A stretch of DNA of 64,000 bases from the NCBI GenBank assembly GCA_017483195.1, contig JAFULR010000008.1, positions 1 to 64,000 on the forward strand. The letters are read 5' to 3'. Within the stretch, counting starts at the first letter, position 1; each line of letters opens with the position of its first letter. The notes beneath the pieces are model-generated. The model was not told where the DNA came from, made no database searches, and worked only from the letters and a program-made list of their open reading frames with translations. Both the position numbers and the translations under genes were made by a program. The DNA comes from Clostridia bacterium (lineage in GTDB: Bacteria > Bacillota > Clostridia > Oscillospirales > CAG-272). Shown here piece by piece: positions 21,720 through 30,758 of the stretch.

Positions 21720-22853
21720 TCACCCCAAAGGAGAACCGCATTTTGCAAATACAGTGATCAGATATAAAAGTGCTATTGCGGTTATTATGATAATGGCAAA
21801 AATATAACCTAATACACTTGATATTTCTTTTAAGATGCTTCCCTGCCTTTCGCACCCGCAAAAATACGCAAATGAGTCCGATACGGTAAGCACTAAACGG
21901 TAAAGATACACCTGTATAAGTGTTGGTAAGACAAGAAGTAAAAAAGCACCCAAAAGAACTATGCCAACACTCGAGCGAAGATACTCAATGCTTGCTCCTG
22001 CGGTTCTCAGAGATTCGCCAACAGTTCCTCCAACGAGAGGAATCATATTAGCCGCAAGCATTTTTGCAGCCTTTGCGCTTAACGAATCCGCTTTTGATAC
22101 AAGTAAATTCTGAGCAGAAATAACGGTTGTAAAGACCGTCATTATCAACCCAATAAAGAAAGTAAATATTTTCTTTATTGCCGCGCTTATTCTTATAAGA
22201 TCAAAGTCTGGCATAAATGCTGAAGCAAGCGCAAGAGCAAGGCATACTCCCATTATCGCTTCAATTGATACTATCAAAACATTCTCAAGTATTGATAGAA
22301 ATACTATTAAAGAGTAGTTATTCACGATAGCGGAGTTAATATTTCCACCCATAGCATACATTCCGCATATAACGGGCGATATTGTATTAACAAATATAAT
22401 GATTCCGTCGAAAAGCTCTTCCACCTTGTAAACATACGGAATAGTTATCTGAACTAATGTTATGGCTGTTACAGAGCTGCTTATTAAGCCTAAAACGTCG
22501 GTCATAGAACCATTTTTTAAAGACTTACTCAAAGAGTTTAACAGTGAGCACATGCAGAGCAAATAGAGAATTTTTCCAATTATTACTCCAATATCCCTTA
22601 AACTCAATCCCAAAATCTCAAATATACTATCAAATACATATTCCCACGACGTTAGCTTTTTTATCGCCTCGTTCCTTTCCTCGTCATTTTTGGAGAATAG
22701 TCCATCAGGTAAAAGCTCAGCGATATCGTCGGGTATCGAGTATTCAAGATCATAATATTGATCATCCAATGCAGATTCTTCTTCCGCGGAAACAGTAATT
22801 GATAAGCTCATTATAAAAAGCACAATAATTACTAATGCGATTCGCTTAATCAT
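21720..22853 (-). CDS. spoIIIAE: Stage III sporulation protein AE
   Basis: A 377-residue multipass membrane protein with an N-terminal signal segment (residues 4-22, cleavable-looking VSA/EEE) and about seven further helices. The conserved Lys-rich and Gly-Gly regions are visible (PLVGGTVGESLRTAG, LPTLIQVYLYRLVL). It resembles transporter-like components and is thought to form the membrane pore part of the SpoIIIA channel. The start overlaps the spoIIIAD stop by four bases. Confidence 0.93.
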   Translation of the reverse strand: MIKRIALVIIVLFIMSLSITVSAEEESALDDQYYDLEYSIPDDIAELLPDGLFSKNDEERNEAIKKLTSWEYVFDSIFEILGLSLRDIGVIIGKILYLLCMCSLLNSLSKSLKNGSMTDVLGLISSSVTAITLVQITIPYVYKVEELFDGIIIFVNTISPVICGMYAMGGNINSAIVNNYSLIVFLSILENVLIVSIEAIMGVCLALALASAFMPDFDLIRISAAIKKIFTFFIGLIMTVFTTVISAQNLLVSKADSLSAKAAKMLAANMIPLVGGTVGESLRTAGASIEYLRSSVGIVLLGAFLLLVLPTLIQVYLYRLVLTVSDSFAYFCGCERQGSILKEISSVLGYIFAIIIITAIALLYLITVFAKCGSPLG

Positions 22854-23236
22854 TGTATTAGTTCTCCCGCAAGATTTAATATCCGCTCAAGTAATGGCAT
22901 CGTTAGCAAAATGATTTCGAGCCTTCCAATAATTTCAACTCCTGAGGCGATATTTCCTTCACCGCAGTCTTTGCAAATATCGCTCGATATCTGAGTGATA
23001 TAGGCAATCGCAAGCGTTTTTAATATGATTTCCATATATTCCTCGTTCAATGCTTGTCCGGCAAGACCGCTTATGTAATCTATCAGAGGAGATACCATCC
23101 CGAGTGATATGCCAAACAATACGATAATGCCGGATATCCGTGCAGTAACGTGAAATTCATTTTTATAGTTTTTTATCATTACGCAAGATATTGCACAGAG
23201 TATTGCAATTCCGAAAAGCTTAAAACTTTCAATCAA
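22850..23236 (-). CDS. spoIIIAD: Stage III sporulation protein AD
   Basis: A 128-residue membrane protein with three to four helices. It carries the conserved AYITQISSDICKDCGEGNIASGVEIIGR segment of SpoIIIAD (here residues about 79-105). It is related in fold to SpoIIIAC and is part of the mother-cell membrane complex. Four-base overlaps with the genes on both sides point to tight co-translation. Confidence 0.92.
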   Translation of the reverse strand: MIESFKLFGIAILCAISCVMIKNYKNEFHVTARISGIIVLFGISLGMVSPLIDYISGLAGQALNEEYMEIILKTLAIAYITQISSDICKDCGEGNIASGVEIIGRLEIILLTMPLLERILNLAGELIQ

Positions 23237-23427
23237 AGCTCGAACACATCCTTTATACGATCGAAAAGATCCCCTATTTCTCCAACCAACATAAAAAACA
23301 CTATCGCAAGCCCTGCTATTATTAGCATTAAGCCTTGCTCATCCCGACCGCTTTTATTTAGTATTTGAGAAGCTATCGAGACTGTTAAACCAATTCCGGC
23401 TATTTTTAATATCAATCCGATTTCCAT
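23233..23427 (-). CDS. spoIIIAC: Stage III sporulation protein AC
   Basis: A 64-residue protein of two membrane helices with the SpoIIIAC core LKIAGIGLTVSIASQILNKSGRDEQ and a following hydrophobic stretch. The start at 23427 (MEIGLIL) fits known family N-termini; a start four codons upstream has its AAAGG touching the ATG, which is too close to work. Four-base overlap with spoIIIAD. Confidence 0.9.
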   Translation of the reverse strand: MEIGLILKIAGIGLTVSIASQILNKSGRDEQGLMLIIAGLAIVFFMLVGEIGDLFDRIKDVFEL

Positions 23428-23442
23428 ATTATGATCCATCCT

Positions 23443-23922
23443 TTATATTAAGAGCAAAATCAATGACGCTGCAAAGCATACACTAAGCCCAAAGTGCATT
23501 TTGCGTTCCTTTGAAATCTTTTCATCTGTCTTTTTTCGATACTCCCTTAACTCGTTAATATGATAATTACACATTTTCAGCTGCTCATCCCTATATACAG
23601 TTCCGAATTCATTAGCAAATTTCATTAATATATCAACAATTTCCTCATCGATATACATATTTGCCGAATTTACAACGTCAGCTACCGTTTTATAACCGGT
23701 ATTTAGCGCTCCGCATTTATTCAGAATGTCACGGTCACACGATTCTATAATTTTATCAATTGGAATATTATAGCATTCAACTTGATTTTTTATGTATTCG
23801 ATCAATCCTATATATGCATCTGCTTGTGAGATCTTCAGCTTTTCATATGCAAGGGTCTCTTTTACGAACACTATACCCGAGATCGCAACACCACATGCCC
23901 CTAAAAGCTTAAATATAGCCAT
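23443..23922 (-). CDS. spoIIIAB: Stage III sporulation protein AB
   Basis: A 159-residue protein with membrane helices at both ends and a helical middle resembling the GspF-like fold of the family (SQADAYIGLIEYIKNQVECYNIPID). The last helix ends in LLLI. The start at 23922 follows GGGAGGA by six bases and overlaps the end of spoIIIAA by 14 bp; a longer reading 15 codons upstream has no ribosome site. It is thought to work with the ATPase SpoIIIAA. Confidence 0.91.
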   Translation of the reverse strand: MAIFKLLGACGVAISGIVFVKETLAYEKLKISQADAYIGLIEYIKNQVECYNIPIDKIIESCDRDILNKCGALNTGYKTVADVVNSANMYIDEEIVDILMKFANEFGTVYRDEQLKMCNYHINELREYRKKTDEKISKERKMHFGLSVCFAASLILLLI

Positions 23923-24781
23923 TGGCTTCCTCCCACGAATATATTTCATATTTAAAGTCAAGTGCATCTCCGCGAGATATCTTCACGTAATTAGAAAATA
24001 TCCCTGCCCTATGTAGATCCCTGATTCCCTTGTGAGACAGTATGTCCTTTATTGATGAACCGTGGCATGAAGCAATAATGGGAATACCTGCGCCTTGAGC
24101 TTCAATTATAGCTGCTGCATCCTTATCATCTCCAATTTCGTCGCAAACAATGATTTGCGCATTCATAGTTCTTACCGCTATCTCAATTCCAAGCTTTCTT
24201 GGGTATGAAGATAATATAGTAACGAGTGTATCCTTTTTAGAAAGTCCGTATCCAAGCTCGTTTCTTGTGTCAATAACACAAGTACGCTTCCCACGTTCTC
24301 CGCTTGATACTTTTTGCGTGATTATTCGCAAAAGAGTTGTCTTTCCTACACCGGGTGGCGCAAATATCAGAGTTGAACCATGATCGATAATCTGAAGTAT
24401 TTCATCACAATTAACGTTAAACAATTTATTTGGAACCCTTATTGCCATCTCACTGACATCATATATACCCAAAACCTTATCATCCTCTGTGCTTGCTCTT
24501 CCGACCACACCCACTCTGATTCCAAGATCAAGTGTAATGTATCCCATTGATATCGAATCTTTAAAAGCATATAAGGAATTTCTTGAAACTGAACGCAATA
24601 TATCCTGCATTTCAGATTCGCTAATAACAATATTCAATAGAACGTTTCTACCGCCGCATATAATATAAGCTTGTCTATTAACTCTGATTCTGATTTCCTC
24701 AAGCAGATCTTCCGAAGTAAGTTTATTATTAATCTCAGCCATTAATCTATCCGGCAAATGATCAAATAATTTCTTATACAT
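23909..24781 (-). CDS. spoIIIAA: Stage III sporulation protein AA, secretion-type ATPase
   Basis: A 290-residue cytoplasmic ATPase related to the PilT/VirB11 family, with Walker A FAPPGVGKTTLLR at about residues 142-154 and a Walker B-like IIVCDEIGD with the catalytic Glu. The N-terminal domain has RIRVNRQAYI and GYITLDLGIRVGV. It is thought to power the SpoIIIA-SpoIIQ channel. A GTG three codons upstream is possible, but GGAAGGTG fits the ATG at 24781 better. It heads the eight-gene operon. Confidence 0.95.
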   Translation of the reverse strand: MYKKLFDHLPDRLMAEINNKLTSEDLLEEIRIRVNRQAYIICGGRNVLLNIVISESEMQDILRSVSRNSLYAFKDSISMGYITLDLGIRVGVVGRASTEDDKVLGIYDVSEMAIRVPNKLFNVNCDEILQIIDHGSTLIFAPPGVGKTTLLRIITQKVSSGERGKRTCVIDTRNELGYGLSKKDTLVTILSSYPRKLGIEIAVRTMNAQIIVCDEIGDDKDAAAIIEAQGAGIPIIASCHGSSIKDILSHKGIRDLHRAGIFSNYVKISRGDALDFKYEIYSWEEANGYI

Positions 24782-24800
24782 CTTTTTCACCTTCCAAATA

Positions 24801-24882: not shown

Positions 24883-24911
24883 GACATATAATGATATTAT
24901 TTGGAGGCTAT

Positions 24912-26393
24912 ATGAAAAAATATATTTTGGCTCTCGACGAAGGGACGACAAGTGCAAGGAGCATTTTGTTCGACCACGACTGCAACATAGTTTGTTCTTC
25001 ACAGCACGAATTCACTCAATATTACCCCCATCCCGGTTGGGTTGAGCAGGATCCTATGGAGATATATGCCAATCAGTATGCAACTCTTACCGAGTGTATT
25101 GCCAAAAGTGGCATTTCAGCCGATGAGATAGCAGGCATTGGAATCACCAACCAACGCGAGACAACTATCCTGTGGAATAAAAACACCGGCAAGCCCATCT
25201 ATAATGCTATCGTATGGCAATGCAGAAGAACCGCTGATATATGTGACAAGCTTGTTGCAGATGGCTATTCTGATTATATTCAAAGCACAACGGGCCTTAA
25301 AATTGATGCTTACTTCAGCGCTACAAAGATCAAATGGATACTCGACAACGTTGAGGGCGCAAGAGAAATGGCTGAGTGCGGAGATCTTCTCTTCGGAACT
25401 GTTGATACCTGGCTGATATGGAAGCTTACGGAAGGCAGAATCCACGTAACTGATGCTACAAATGCATCACGAACTATGCTTTATGATATAGAAAAAGGAA
25501 TATGGGATAATAAGCTTTTGGAAATCTTTGATATTCCCCAATCCATGCTTCCAAAGATATGCTCAAGCAGCGAAATATACGGGTCGATCGATATTATGGG
25601 CGCATCTATTCCAATCTGCGGAATTGCCGGAGACCAACAAGCTGCCCTCTTCGGTCAATGCTGCTTTATGGACGGAGAAGCTAAAAATACATACGGTACC
25701 GGATGCTTCCTGCTTGCTCATACAGGAAACAAGCGTGTAAGCTCTAAAAACGGCTTGATCACTACTGTAGCAGCAACAGAAAAGGGCAGAGCTTCCGAAT
25801 ATGCTCTCGAAGGATCAGTGTTCGTTGGAGGCGCAGTAATACAATGGCTCAGAGATGAGCTTCGAGTTATCAATGAATCCAAGGATAGCGAATATTTTGC
25901 CAAGAAGGTTAAGGACAATGGTGGAGTATATCTTGTTCCCGCCTTCGCAGGACTTGGCGCACCGCATTGGGATATGCACGCAAGAGGCACTATCACAGGG
26001 CTTACAAGGGGCTCTAACGTTTATCATATTATTCGTGCAGCCCTTGAATCTATCGCATATCAGTCCAATGATGTTATTAGCGCTATGGAGGCTGATACAG
26101 GAAGGGATATCGTATTCTTAAAGGTTGACGGAGGCGCGTCCGCTAATAGCTTTTTGATGCAATTCCAAAGTGATATTTCAAACGTAGAGGTTATACGCCC
26201 CTCTCTTGCCGAAGCTACCGCACAAGGCGCCGCTTTTCTTGCAGGTCTCGCTGTTGGGTTCTATAAGGATCGCGACGATCTTCGCACCATAGTATCAGTA
26301 AAGGATTCCTTCAAGCCGACAATAGAAGATAAAGCTCGGGCAGTATTACTTGATGGATGGAATAATGCAATTAATGCTTGTAAAAAAGATTAA
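24912..26393 (+). CDS. glpK: Glycerol kinase
   Basis: A 493-residue FGGY-family kinase that phosphorylates glycerol to sn-glycerol-3-phosphate. N-terminal ATPase motif [17 protein letters not shown], the substrate segment [18 protein letters not shown] and the C-terminal [16 protein letters not shown] are all present; length is normal. The start at 24912 has TTGGAGG six bases before it; seven extra upstream codons are rejected. It is followed ten bases later by a lipase-like gene, so the pair may form a glycerol-scavenging operon. No glpF or glpD is in the window. Confidence 0.96.
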
Positions 26394-26403
26394 GGAGGAC
26401 ACT

Positions 26404-27318
26404 ATGTGTATAAAAGTATTGGATAAAAAGGTTCTTTCTTCAAACGGCAAAAATATGCTGTCCGGAAAGGTATATCTCCCCGACGGTGATGTAAAAGGCT
26501 ATTTTCACGTTGTTCACGGCATGACAGAGCATATCTCCAGATATGACTCCTTTATGAGCCTTATGGCAGAGCAAGGATACATCACGTTTGGATATGATCA
26601 TCTTGGACACGGTTACACTGCAAAGGATGATTCCGAGCTTGGCTTTATTGCAGAGCGAAACGGTGACGATCTGCTCGCTAAGGATGTCAAGGTGTTTTAT
26701 GATGCTATGAAAGAGGAATACGGTGATCTTCCCTATTATCTTATGGGACACAGTATGGGCTCATTCATAGTTAGAATGGCTACGCAATACTACGTAACGC
26801 CAACTAAGCTCATCATTATGGGAACAAGCGGACCCAATCCAATTGCAGGAGCGGGACTTCTTGTATGCAAGCTTATTCGTGCCATCAAGGGTTCTCATCA
26901 CATTTCTCCACTTGTTGAAAATCTCGCTTTTGGCGCATACAACGATCACTTCAAGAGCGAAAACGATCCCAATGCTTGGCTTACCAAGGATATCGATATA
27001 CGAAAGAAATACGTTGCTGACAAATACTGTACGTTTAAGTTTACGGTCTCTGCTATGCACGATCTTATCTCCTTAAATAAAAACTGCAATACTGATGAAT
27101 GGTTTTCTTCAGTTGCCAAAAAGATGCCAATCCTCCTGACCTCCGGAGAGGACGATCCCGTTGGAGATTACGGCAAGGGAATACGAATTTGTGAAGAAAA
27201 GCTCAGAGCTAACGGCGCAAGCGTAGTTACTAAACTTTATCCGAATAACCGCCACGAGATACTTAACGACACTTGTCGTGAAGAAGTAATCAAGGATATT
27301 CTTGATTTTATATCATAA
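26404..27318 (+). CDS. Alpha/beta hydrolase, monoacylglycerol-lipase-like
   Basis: A 304-residue serine hydrolase of the Hydrolase_4 (monoglyceride lipase/lysophospholipase) type. The oxyanion segment VVHGMTEHISRYD is near residue 40, the nucleophile elbow is GHSMGSF (about 115-121), the acid is in SGEDDPVGDYG and the His in NNRHEIL. No signal peptide, so it is cytoplasmic. The start at 26404 follows TAAGGAGG by five bases. Position directly behind glpK suggests it frees glycerol from monoacylglycerols for phosphorylation (inference). Confidence 0.88.
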   Translation: MCIKVLDKKVLSSNGKNMLSGKVYLPDGDVKGYFHVVHGMTEHISRYDSFMSLMAEQGYITFGYDHLGHGYTAKDDSELGFIAERNGDDLLAKDVKVFYDAMKEEYGDLPYYLMGHSMGSFIVRMATQYYVTPTKLIIMGTSGPNPIAGAGLLVCKLIRAIKGSHHISPLVENLAFGAYNDHFKSENDPNAWLTKDIDIRKKYVADKYCTFKFTVSAMHDLISLNKNCNTDEWFSSVAKKMPILLTSGEDDPVGDYGKGIRICEEKLRANGASVVTKLYPNNRHEILNDTCREEVIKDILDFIS

Positions 27319-27862: not shown

Positions 27863-27892
27863 AAAAGAAGCCATCAGTTGATGGCTTCTTTT
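27863..27892. terminator. Bidirectional terminator between tspO and the uronate-isomerase-like gene
   Basis: AAAAGAAGCCATCA pairs with TGATGGCTTCTTTT; it starts right after the tspO stop and includes the stop of the converging gene. Confidence 0.88.
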
Positions 27893-28965
27893 AAATTGTT
27901 GTATAAAATATCTTGAATTAATCTTTGCAGCGTCTTTTCATCGCTTGCGTATTCTCCGTCTTCTACCCACTTGCCAATTATATTACATATGATTCGGCGA
28001 GTGTAATCGACACGCGCAAAGGCAGAGGCAGGTAATATTATATCTGGCAAAAATATAAACTTCCCAAATATATTTTTACGGGCAAAGCCTTCAAGCCTTC
28101 TCGATATTTCACCCTCATCGTCCTCAGCATCTATATAAACAAGATTAAAGCTTTTGGGCAGAGCGTTGGATCTATTTAAATAATCAAGAGCTTCATCGTC
28201 AATATACGGTTCAGCTCCATAATCCTCTTTACACCAAATCAAAGACCAATTCCTTTTTTTAAGCTCAGATCCAAGTGTTCGATAAATCTGCATATCAAGA
28301 AGGCGTATTTCATCGGGAGTAATACTTGTCCCTCCCTTTAATTTTAGAAGTATTTGATTTGCTTGATAAGGGTTTGGCTTAATAAATTTGTCAATAACCC
28401 AGCAGACAGCAGCCTTGCAGCCATTACTGTGTTGACTCGATATCATATCGGTAAGTCTTGATTCAAGATCACTAAGGCTTTTGATAGATTCATTATTTAT
28501 TTCACTCCATAAAGATGGATAAAAAGCCCTAACAAAAGAAACATCCGATCGCTTCATAGCGATTTGGTCTGAAAACGAATCTGCAATAATTTTTGAATTG
28601 CAAAACTCCCATATTTCATCGCAGTTATCTTCACATATTGCTAAAGTACATTCATAATTTTTTATCAGTTCAATATGAGAAATCAAATATATAGGATTCC
28701 CCACAAACCTTGGTAAAACAGAGCAAAATGCCTTGAATTTTTCATAGTCCGATGCGTCACCCGTTATGTACTTTTCATCTATTCCATAAGCTCTCATAGA
28801 ATCAAGCTTATAGCAATCATTAGTCAAAAAAGCTTCGGTAACGTTATTATATATTTTATCATCCACCTCAACATCGGAGCAAAGAGCTATTGTCGGAAGA
28901 TCCCTTGCATATTCAAAATACAATCTTTTAGCCGTTTCATTATGTAGTAAGTAATTTTCGTTCAT
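27874..28965 (-). CDS. Degenerate uronate isomerase (UxaC-like) protein, probably non-catalytic
   Basis: A 363-residue protein clearly related to glucuronate/uronate isomerase but about 100 residues shorter. Shared features: start LLHNETAKRLYFEYARDLP, middle YITGDASDYEKF, SLSDLESRL...GCKAA, and end RRIICNIIGKWVEDGEYASDE followed by ILYNNLKEA. The metal-binding motif, normally Asp-Tyr-His-Cys-His after DLP-x-I, reads ALCSDV (residues 27-32), so both histidines are gone; the later DHG and LHIG motifs are also altered (AVCWVI, LIWCKED). Isomerase activity is therefore unlikely. The frame is intact, AGGGGTG precedes the start and a strong promoter exists. A sensory, structural or new role, or early decay, are possible. 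Confidence 0.8.
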   Translation of the reverse strand: MNENYLLHNETAKRLYFEYARDLPTIALCSDVEVDDKIYNNVTEAFLTNDCYKLDSMRAYGIDEKYITGDASDYEKFKAFCSVLPRFVGNPIYLISHIELIKNYECTLAICEDNCDEIWEFCNSKIIADSFSDQIAMKRSDVSFVRAFYPSLWSEINNESIKSLSDLESRLTDMISSQHSNGCKAAVCWVIDKFIKPNPYQANQILLKLKGGTSITPDEIRLLDMQIYRTLGSELKKRNWSLIWCKEDYGAEPYIDDEALDYLNRSNALPKSFNLVYIDAEDDEGEISRRLEGFARKNIFGKFIFLPDIILPASAFARVDYTRRIICNIIGKWVEDGEYASDEKTLQRLIQDILYNNLKEAIN

Positions 28966-28993
28966 TTGTTCACCCCTGCATATTGTTAAACCA

Positions 28994-29022
28994 ATTATAC
29001 AATACTTTTAATAAAGTTTCAA
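28994..29022 (-). promoter_or_regulatory. Sigma-A promoter of the UxaC-like gene
   Basis: On the minus strand TTGAAA (29017-29022), a 17-bp spacer and TATAAT (28994-28999), 28 bp before the start. Confidence 0.75.
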
Positions 29023-29100: not shown

Positions 29101-29583
29101 ATGGAAAATAAATTGCTTAAATTGCTTGAAAACGATGCCACTCTCACTCATGAGCAGCTTGCCAAAATGCTTGAAAAAGAGGTTGGCGATATAAAGAAGA
29201 TAATTCTTGAATATGAGAAGAATGGTGTGATTTTAGGGTATAAGACCTTGGTTGACTGGGATAAGACCTCTCGCGAATACGTAACTGCTATCATAGAGGT
29301 TAAAACAACTCCCCAGCCTGAGCGCGGATTTGACAGAATTGCAGAGAGAATCTACAATTATCCCGAGGTGGAAAGTCTCTATCTTATTTCCGGAGGATTT
29401 GATTTTGCTATTGTAATACAAGCCAAAACATTGCGTGAGGTAGCTCTTTTCGTTGCGGAAAAGCTCTCCCCAATTCCTCATATTCAAAGCACATCAACAC
29501 ATTTTGTCCTTAGAAGATACAAGGATAAGGGAGTAATATACGGCGCCGCGCCCGAGATAGATGAAAGAGAGAGCCTTGGTTAA
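29101..29583 (+). CDS. Lrp/AsnC-family transcriptional regulator
   Basis: A 160-residue Lrp-type regulator. The winged helix-turn-helix lies at residues 1-55 (LLKLLENDATLTHEQLAKML) and the RAM ligand-binding domain follows, with VTAIIEVKTTPQ and LISGGFDFAIVIQAKT. Such proteins sense amino acids and control their metabolism. CAAAGGAG precedes the start. The stop overlaps the aminotransferase ATG by one base (TAATG), so the regulator probably controls its own operon in response to the amino acid handled by the enzyme. Confidence 0.93.
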   Translation: MENKLLKLLENDATLTHEQLAKMLEKEVGDIKKIILEYEKNGVILGYKTLVDWDKTSREYVTAIIEVKTTPQPERGFDRIAERIYNYPEVESLYLISGGFDFAIVIQAKTLREVALFVAEKLSPIPHIQSTSTHFVLRRYKDKGVIYGAAPEIDERESLG

Positions 29584-30758
29584 TGATCGACTATAATAAG
29601 ATTCTCCCCGAAAAAATAGTAAGCATACCAAAATCGGGCATCAGAAAATACTTTGATATGATAACACCCGATATGAAGGACGTTATTTCACTAACCGTGG
29701 GTCAGCCTGATTTCGTTACCCCCTGGCATATTCGAGAGGCAGGTATTCAAAGTCTTGAAACCGGAAAGACTTTCTATACAGCGAATGCGGGACTTATGGA
29801 ACTGAGATGTGAAATCGATAAGTATATGACTCGTCGTTTCTCTCTATCGTATGATCCTTCAAGTGAGATCATAGTTACCGTTGGTGGCTCCGAAGCAATT
29901 GACATAGCTATGAGAGCGATTCTCGATATCGGTGATGAGGTTATCATCCCCACTCCTTCTTTCGTTTGTTACGAGCCCTTGACAAGAATGGCAGGTGCCG
30001 TACCCGTAATACTTGAAACATATATGGAGGATGAATTCCGAATTGATCCTGCTAAATTAAAGGCTCTTATTACACCTAAAACCAAAATGATAGTTCTTCC
30101 TTTCCCCAACAATCCAACCGGTGCAATTATGACGCGCGCCGAGCTGATGGAAATTGCGGATATAATAAAGGATACTAATATAATCGTGCTATCCGATGAA
30201 ATATATGCAGAAATGACCTATGGCGACCGCCACGTATCAATTGCAAGCATTGAAGGAATGAAGGAACGCACAATAGTTGTTAACGGCTTTTCAAAGGCTT
30301 TTGCTATGACAGGCTGGCGTCTTGGATGGGTGTGTGCTCCCGCTCCTATTACGGCGCAAATGCTGAAAATACATCAATACGAGATAATGTCAAGCCCAAC
30401 AACCTCTCAGTTTGCGGCAATATCCGCACTTAAAAACGGAGATCCTGATATAGAATATATGACAGCTGAGTATGATAGGCGCAGAACTCTCATATATAAT
30501 AGGCTTAATGAGATGGGATTAGAGTGCTTCGAGCCCAAGGGTGCGTTTTATGTCTTCCCTAAAATTTCTCAGTTCGGTATAAGCGGAGAGGAATTTTGCT
30601 CAGAGCTATTAAAACGATATCACGTTGCTATCGTCCCCGGAGAGGCTTTCGGTGCATGCGGTCTTGGATACGCAAGAATATCCTATGCCTATTCAATTAA
30701 TCATATAGCTGAAGGTCTTGACCGAATGGAAAAATTCATAAATGAAATAAAAAAATAG
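29583..30758 (+). CDS. Class I/II PLP-dependent aminotransferase
   Basis: A 391-residue fold-type I aminotransferase. Conserved points: SLTVGQPDFVTPWHIREA, YTANAGLMELR, PFPNNPTGAIM with the Asn that contacts PLP, LSDEIYAEMTYG with the PLP-binding Asp and Tyr, NGFSKAFAMTGWRLGW with the Schiff-base Lys, and a late ARISYA carrying the carboxylate-binding Arg. It resembles aspartate/aromatic or alanine-type enzymes next to Lrp regulators in Clostridia; the amino donor is not decidable. One-base overlap with the Lrp gene. Confidence 0.92.
   Translation: MIDYNKILPEKIVSIPKSGIRKYFDMITPDMKDVISLTVGQPDFVTPWHIREAGIQSLETGKTFYTANAGLMELRCEIDKYMTRRFSLSYDPSSEIIVTVGGSEAIDIAMRAILDIGDEVIIPTPSFVCYEPLTRMAGAVPVILETYMEDEFRIDPAKLKALITPKTKMIVLPFPNNPTGAIMTRAELMEIADIIKDTNIIVLSDEIYAEMTYGDRHVSIASIEGMKERTIVVNGFSKAFAMTGWRLGWVCAPAPITAQMLKIHQYEIMSSPTTSQFAAISALKNGDPDIEYMTAEYDRRRTLIYNRLNEMGLECFEPKGAFYVFPKISQFGISGEEFCSELLKRYHVAIVPGEAFGACGLGYARISYAYSINHIAEGLDRMEKFINEIKK

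Follow-up and report, generated by a model that had tools for sequence, protein, structure and literature searches.

The closest described system is the uronate isomerase UxaC (PF02614; structures 3IAC and 1J5S), with which the protein described here shares homology over its full length, the fold, both termini, and the N-terminal helical segment. Unlike UxaC, it has none of the metal and substrate residues, it is not encoded in a uronate operon, and it is predicted to have six core strands where UxaC has eight, with deletions around strands 2/3 and 5–7. Barrels of other amidohydrolases, such as the Geobacillus lactonase and phosphotriesterase, belong to the same superfamily and match more weakly (Z ~9), but those are metal enzymes and this protein has no metal ligands.

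Whereas pseudoenzymes as a rule have a single origin and are passed on from there, in this case the change appears to have come about repeatedly at one locus, across several genera. In the general description given in one source, they are enzyme homologues without the conserved catalytic motifs that are kept folded under selection (PMC10211241), and in these respects the protein is like them. No pseudoenzyme derived from UxaC was found in a literature search.

The pseudo-uxaC gene and its surroundings

The window is the whole stretch of 64,000 nucleotides that was analysed. The gene, here called pseudo-uxaC, and its associated features are as follows.

27874–28965, minus strand: pseudo-uxaC, a 363-aa UxaC homologue without catalytic residues (PF02614, alignments, AlphaFold2)
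28994–29022, minus strand: promoter-like TTGAAA-N17-TATAAT, 11 of 12 matches
28970–28977, minus strand: ribosome-binding-site-like AGGGGTGA, read from the sequence, with a Shine-Dalgarno-like AGGGG ~7 nt 5' of the pseudo-uxaC ATG
27863–27892, minus strand: hairpin terminator of 13 bp, covering the pseudo-uxaC stop codon and common to two convergent genes
28873–28881, minus strand: codons 29–31, Cys-Ser-Asp replacing the metal-binding His-x-His (alignments; Cys-Glu-Asn in the sister species)
28582–28848, minus strand: N-terminal helical segment, residues 40–128, the best-retained part, helices in the model
27877–28023, minus strand: C-terminal helices, residues 315–363
29101–29583, plus strand: divergent lrp/asnC-family regulator (PF01037), a neighbour kept across genera
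29583–30758, plus strand: aminotransferase class I/II (PF00155), a conserved neighbour at the locus
26395–27318, plus strand: alpha/beta hydrolase (PF12146)
24891–26393, plus strand: glycerol kinase-like gene, named from reading of the sequence, no profile; syntenic in genomes G002 and G003

The preliminary description had reported a frame open over 363 codons, a promoter, and a good ribosome-binding site; the frame is open from its ATG, and a promoter-like site and a Shine-Dalgarno-like sequence are present. It had also stated that terminators bound the gene, which is true of the 3' hairpin; the second minus-strand terminator is weaker and lies inside the divergent lrp gene, leaving the hairpin as the only convincing one. 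The stops and frameshifts of a pseudogene are absent both here and in the orthologue in G002. The PF02614 profile matches the protein at 3.1e-53 (181.7 bits, cut-off 25), best over residues 1–145, and phmmer matches it to 3IAC (9.7e-38) and 1J5S (1.4e-21). The NCBIfam glucuronate isomerase profile gives 148.6 bits, under its equivalog cut-off of 387.

The divergent neighbours in the window are the Lrp and aminotransferase genes. The MutS-like gene that accompanies them in other genera was not found in four searched genomes of the window genus. Elsewhere in the window, genes at 21720–24790 on the minus strand read like a spoIIIA sporulation operon, although the genome is only ~1.34 Mb (89% complete).

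Loss of the active site and retention of the body

The catalytic residues of UxaC, which we take to be those defined in the mutagenesis studies of the E. coli and B. halodurans enzymes, are lost from this protein. In the alignment, the HxH metal ligands of strand 1 read C29-S-D31, as had been noted before, and the loss of the later His motifs is also borne out. The His of QLHxG, the Arg of LRN, the catalytic Asp and Arg of TDSRSF, and the Trp of WWFND have each been substituted or deleted, and neither the strand-5 His nor the WWFND motif is left. Judged from these residues, the protein would have no isomerase activity. It has lost the catalytic motif and has kept the fold and the expression signals, as a pseudoenzyme would.

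The functional UxaCs have 129 conserved columns. Of the lineage cells in the 11 catalytic columns, 5.6% retain the residue, compared with 43.2% of those in the remaining 118 (permutation p < 5e-5). In the numbering of the window protein, Trp119 persists in 11 of 11 lineages and Phe77 in ten. Residues 61–120 are 60–67% identical to a functional relative, compared with 10–43% for residues 121–300. Against the orthologue in G002, residues 331–360 are ~80% identical, and conservation is lowest in the middle of the barrel (13–40%). All six lineages with more than one member have lost 36–64% of the stretch that follows strand 5 (301–345 in the numbering of G164).

The AlphaFold2 model of the window protein (mean pLDDT 86.6, pTM 0.82) has six core strands of at least 3 residues. 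A fold search with it places 3IAC (Z 32.1), 1J5S (31.4), and 2Q01 (26.7) nearest, with an rmsd of 3.0 over 358 residues to 3IAC. Because the input alignment was made of 31 functional UxaCs, which pulls the model toward the UxaC fold, the overall fold can be regarded as safe and the fine detail of the trimmed barrel as a prediction.

Orthologues and distribution in the family

A syntenic orthologue is present in G002, a genome of the same genus, with 48% identity over its length, an intact frame of 359 aa, and the same adjoining hydrolase and glycerol kinase genes. It has the same losses, reading LCEN (Cys-Glu-Asn) in place of the HxH; Cys29 is therefore common to the two and Asp31 is not. In another species (G003) the order is glpK-hydrolase-lrp-aminotransferase with nothing between hydrolase and lrp, which means that pseudo-uxaC is dispensable at the genus level.

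Profile and ORF searches covered 395 genomes of the same family, after which individual loci were read. UxaC homologues without the HxH were found in 22 of these genomes, in 11 genera, and all 22 inactive frames that were used are free of internal stops. In G376 and G186 (genus g48) the second His is kept and the first is lost. The inactive homologues are between 263 and 451 aa long; PF02614 matches the shortest ones marginally or not at all, and no other Pfam family matches them at E 0.1. The shorter forms of 263–309 aa, in genera g24, g28, g32, and g100, look like further erosion. Four forms of 282–309 aa in three genera (L175:9191-10057, L191:3491-4339, L203:1795-2655, L205:177-1106) are all without strand 1 and the C-terminal helices and end soon after P-(I/L)-G; either this trimming is convergent or they share an origin.

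Several candidates were set aside. The motif F-K-P-x-P-Y-H-A does not mark inactive proteins, being present in functional UxaCs of the family as well. L049, at 57% identity to the last 46 residues, is the end of a functional UxaC and not a third orthologue. The UxaCs of ~400 aa at L001, L003, L004, L009, L014, L022, and L042 are short and catalytically intact. These form a short UxaC type, together with L226 (427 aa) and L227 (422 aa), in which ~45–90 residues are missing in mid-profile (~188–279), the active site is whole, and uxaA is often adjacent. Very similar copies in different genera suggest that this type has spread horizontally. G097 has an extra divergent UxaC of 438 aa (L225:2611-3924, contig C87), with the HxH and TDSRS kept and the middle motifs altered, in addition to two further UxaCs.

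One locus in two states

In an all-against-all comparison of neighbourhoods, the usual arrangement has the inactive gene divergent from a PHP-domain gene (when present), a MutS-like gene (a MutS domain V ATPase of ~540 aa), an Lrp/AsnC gene, and an aminotransferase gene. The exceptions are in g3 and g24, where the inactive genes sit elsewhere. The order PHP, MutS domain V ATPase, Lrp/AsnC, aminotransferase is kept in many genera (L162, L164, L170, L171, L175, L198, L210, and others). In the reverse approach, starting at the MutS-like gene, 40 further loci were read. A functional uxaC bearing the HxH occupies the same divergent position in G160, G009, G054, G051, G164, G137, G097, G149, G020, and G058, and many genomes with the MutS-like locus have no uxaC-derived gene there. 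In genera g18, g37, g48, and g88 both inactive and functional uxaC are found at the locus, in different species; in g37, truB flanks both states on the far side.

In a joint tree, all of the inactive sequences cluster on long branches (SH-aLRT 94), with a warning from the program of long-branch joins, and this cluster is read as long-branch attraction. When a single inactive group at a time was added to the functional set, removing the long-branch pull, the inactive g18 proteins were sister to functional g18 (SH-aLRT 100), the inactive g48 proteins fell with functional g48 (98 / 88), and inactive g88 with functional g88 (77). In each of these three genera, the nearest functional relative of every inactive protein comes from within the genus itself. 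The pair from the window and G002 falls within the clade of the locus (SH-aLRT 100); the window gene descends from the native uxaC of this site.

A single clade of the g18 and g48 inactive proteins was rejected by the AU test (p 0.028), but the test did not reject grouping the window pair with g18 or grouping it with g48. The single origin of all inactive copies seen in the joint tree is rejected as the main reading by synteny, the separate trees, and the AU test. The fact that a functional uxaC is present at the same site in four genera supports inactivation in place more than once, with two losses formally supported and four or more likely from synteny. The loss in the window gene could be shared with another group.

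Metabolic setting

The preliminary description had stated that there were no uronate pathway genes nearby. None is present in the neighbourhood inspected, but a true uxaC lies ~103 kb away on the same contig (C4:131296-132642). The genes next to it, which encode an altronate dehydratase and a member of the mannitol dehydrogenase family, were taken to be uxaA and uxaB; UxuA is also present in the genome. Of the 22 genomes with an inactive copy, 14 encode a further UxaC that scores above the family cut-off (in many cases next to uxaA), compared with roughly 3 of 10 genomes with a functional gene at the locus. An association of the inactive state with a second UxaC is suggestive only. The second UxaC in g1 and g48 is of a different UxaC type. 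The remaining eight genomes have no other UxaC and are mostly incomplete. However, G021 (98% complete) and G031 (97%) have no other UxaC, no UxaA, and no UxuA, yet have kept the inactive gene, which therefore survives without the pathway.

Selection

Maximum likelihood codon estimates of dN/dS for inactive pairs at unsaturated distances are 0.40, 0.30, 0.26, 0.19, 0.21, and 0.25, each significantly below 1 (likelihood ratio statistics 18.7–130.6 against an omega of 1); the inactive genes are under purifying selection. For comparison, the MutS-like gene, the aminotransferase, and functional UxaC give 0.02–0.05 and the PHP gene 0.15. The constraint is weak, since the values are 5–10 times those of functional UxaC and the neighbours. 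Between the window gene and its G002 orthologue dN is 0.48 and dS is saturated; an omega of 1 is rejected (statistic 113), and dN/dS is at most ~0.38 if the dS of functional UxaC between the two genomes (1.26) is taken as a floor. Neutral simulation of the window gene produced a mean of 7–16 stops, with 0 of 400 frames intact at 0.2 or more substitutions per site.

The preliminary description had argued for a retained non-isomerase role and against a broken gene, and had named two observations that would point to decay in this strain only: restored His in close orthologues and a dN/dS near one. In the closest orthologue the His are not restored, dN/dS is well below one in the unsaturated inactive pairs, and neutrality is rejected for the window pair despite its saturated dS. 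Its argument is supported on both counts; what the role might be is considered below.

Explanations for the retained gene

Pseudo-uxaC probably encodes a pseudoenzyme that is maintained because it has a structural or binding role. Slow decay is unlikely, even though it would account for the raised dN/dS, the graded shortening from ~475 to 263 aa, the clean absence from G003, and the independence of the losses. In that reading the native gene, once a second UxaC had assumed its function or the pathway had disappeared, has no dedicated job and erodes while a weak constraint persists, which might, for instance, act solely against harmful misfolding. The intact frames would then be partly an ascertainment effect of searching for open frames. 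However, decay sits poorly with 22 of 22 inactive frames without an internal stop, and with a dN/dS significantly below 1 in every pair when the losses were, as far as the alignment shows, already present in the ancestors of the pairs. Nor would uniform decay give retention of 43% for structural residues against 6% for catalytic ones, or survival of the gene in G021 and G031. The same two genomes, having no functional UxaC, make it improbable that the dead copy is a regulatory or stabilising subunit of the true enzyme; the 14 genomes with both proteins would suit such a partnership and the retained regions could be subunit contacts, but in g1 and g48 the different type of the second UxaC means that the partners would not be sister proteins.

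Far less probable still is a new reaction on the old scaffold, with Cys29 and Asp31 forming a different metal or catalytic site. A Cys at the first His position is seen also in G002, G144, G186, and G376, but such a site is argued against because Asp31 is Asn in G002 where the Cys is shared. In addition, the other ligands are lost without conserved substitutes, the active-site loops are deleted, and the mid-barrel is where the window and G002 proteins are least alike.

Under the pseudoenzyme reading, the native uronate isomerase gene of the family would have been turned into a pseudoenzyme in place, with uronate isomerisation left to the separate uxaC-uxaA-uxaB operon or, in some relatives, dropped, to judge from gene content. 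Alignment and model show that selection still holds the folded part of the protein, chiefly its N-terminal helical segment and, in the window genus, the C-terminal helices as well, and that the loops of the active site have been excised along with two barrel stretches. The window protein is presumably translated and used. Most likely it would work as a binding protein or scaffold, with the helical surfaces that it has retained as the probable contact sites. A protein-protein role can be suggested tentatively, and sensing of a small ligand less readily. The ancestral UxaC at the locus may already have done this binding job on the side, and it is proposed that the shell was kept repeatedly after catalytic loss because that side role pre-existed. 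It is a more doubtful extension that the native UxaC is bifunctional, with a second, non-catalytic role tied to the MutS-like/Lrp/aminotransferase locus, and is repeatedly stripped to that role when another UxaC takes over or uronate use is lost.

Implications

Annotation by profile alone (the window gene scores 181.7 bits against a cut-off of 25) will assign uronate isomerase to genomes in which, to judge from gene content, the activity is absent, as in G021. At one locus, the orthologous gene appears to have become catalytically dead in no fewer than two separate events, and probably in four or more, and to have been kept each time. This makes the locus a natural replicate experiment, in which the residues that no lineage has given up indicate a testable non-catalytic function. 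If the native UxaC is indeed bifunctional, these losses would have exposed a hidden function of a classical sugar-acid enzyme.
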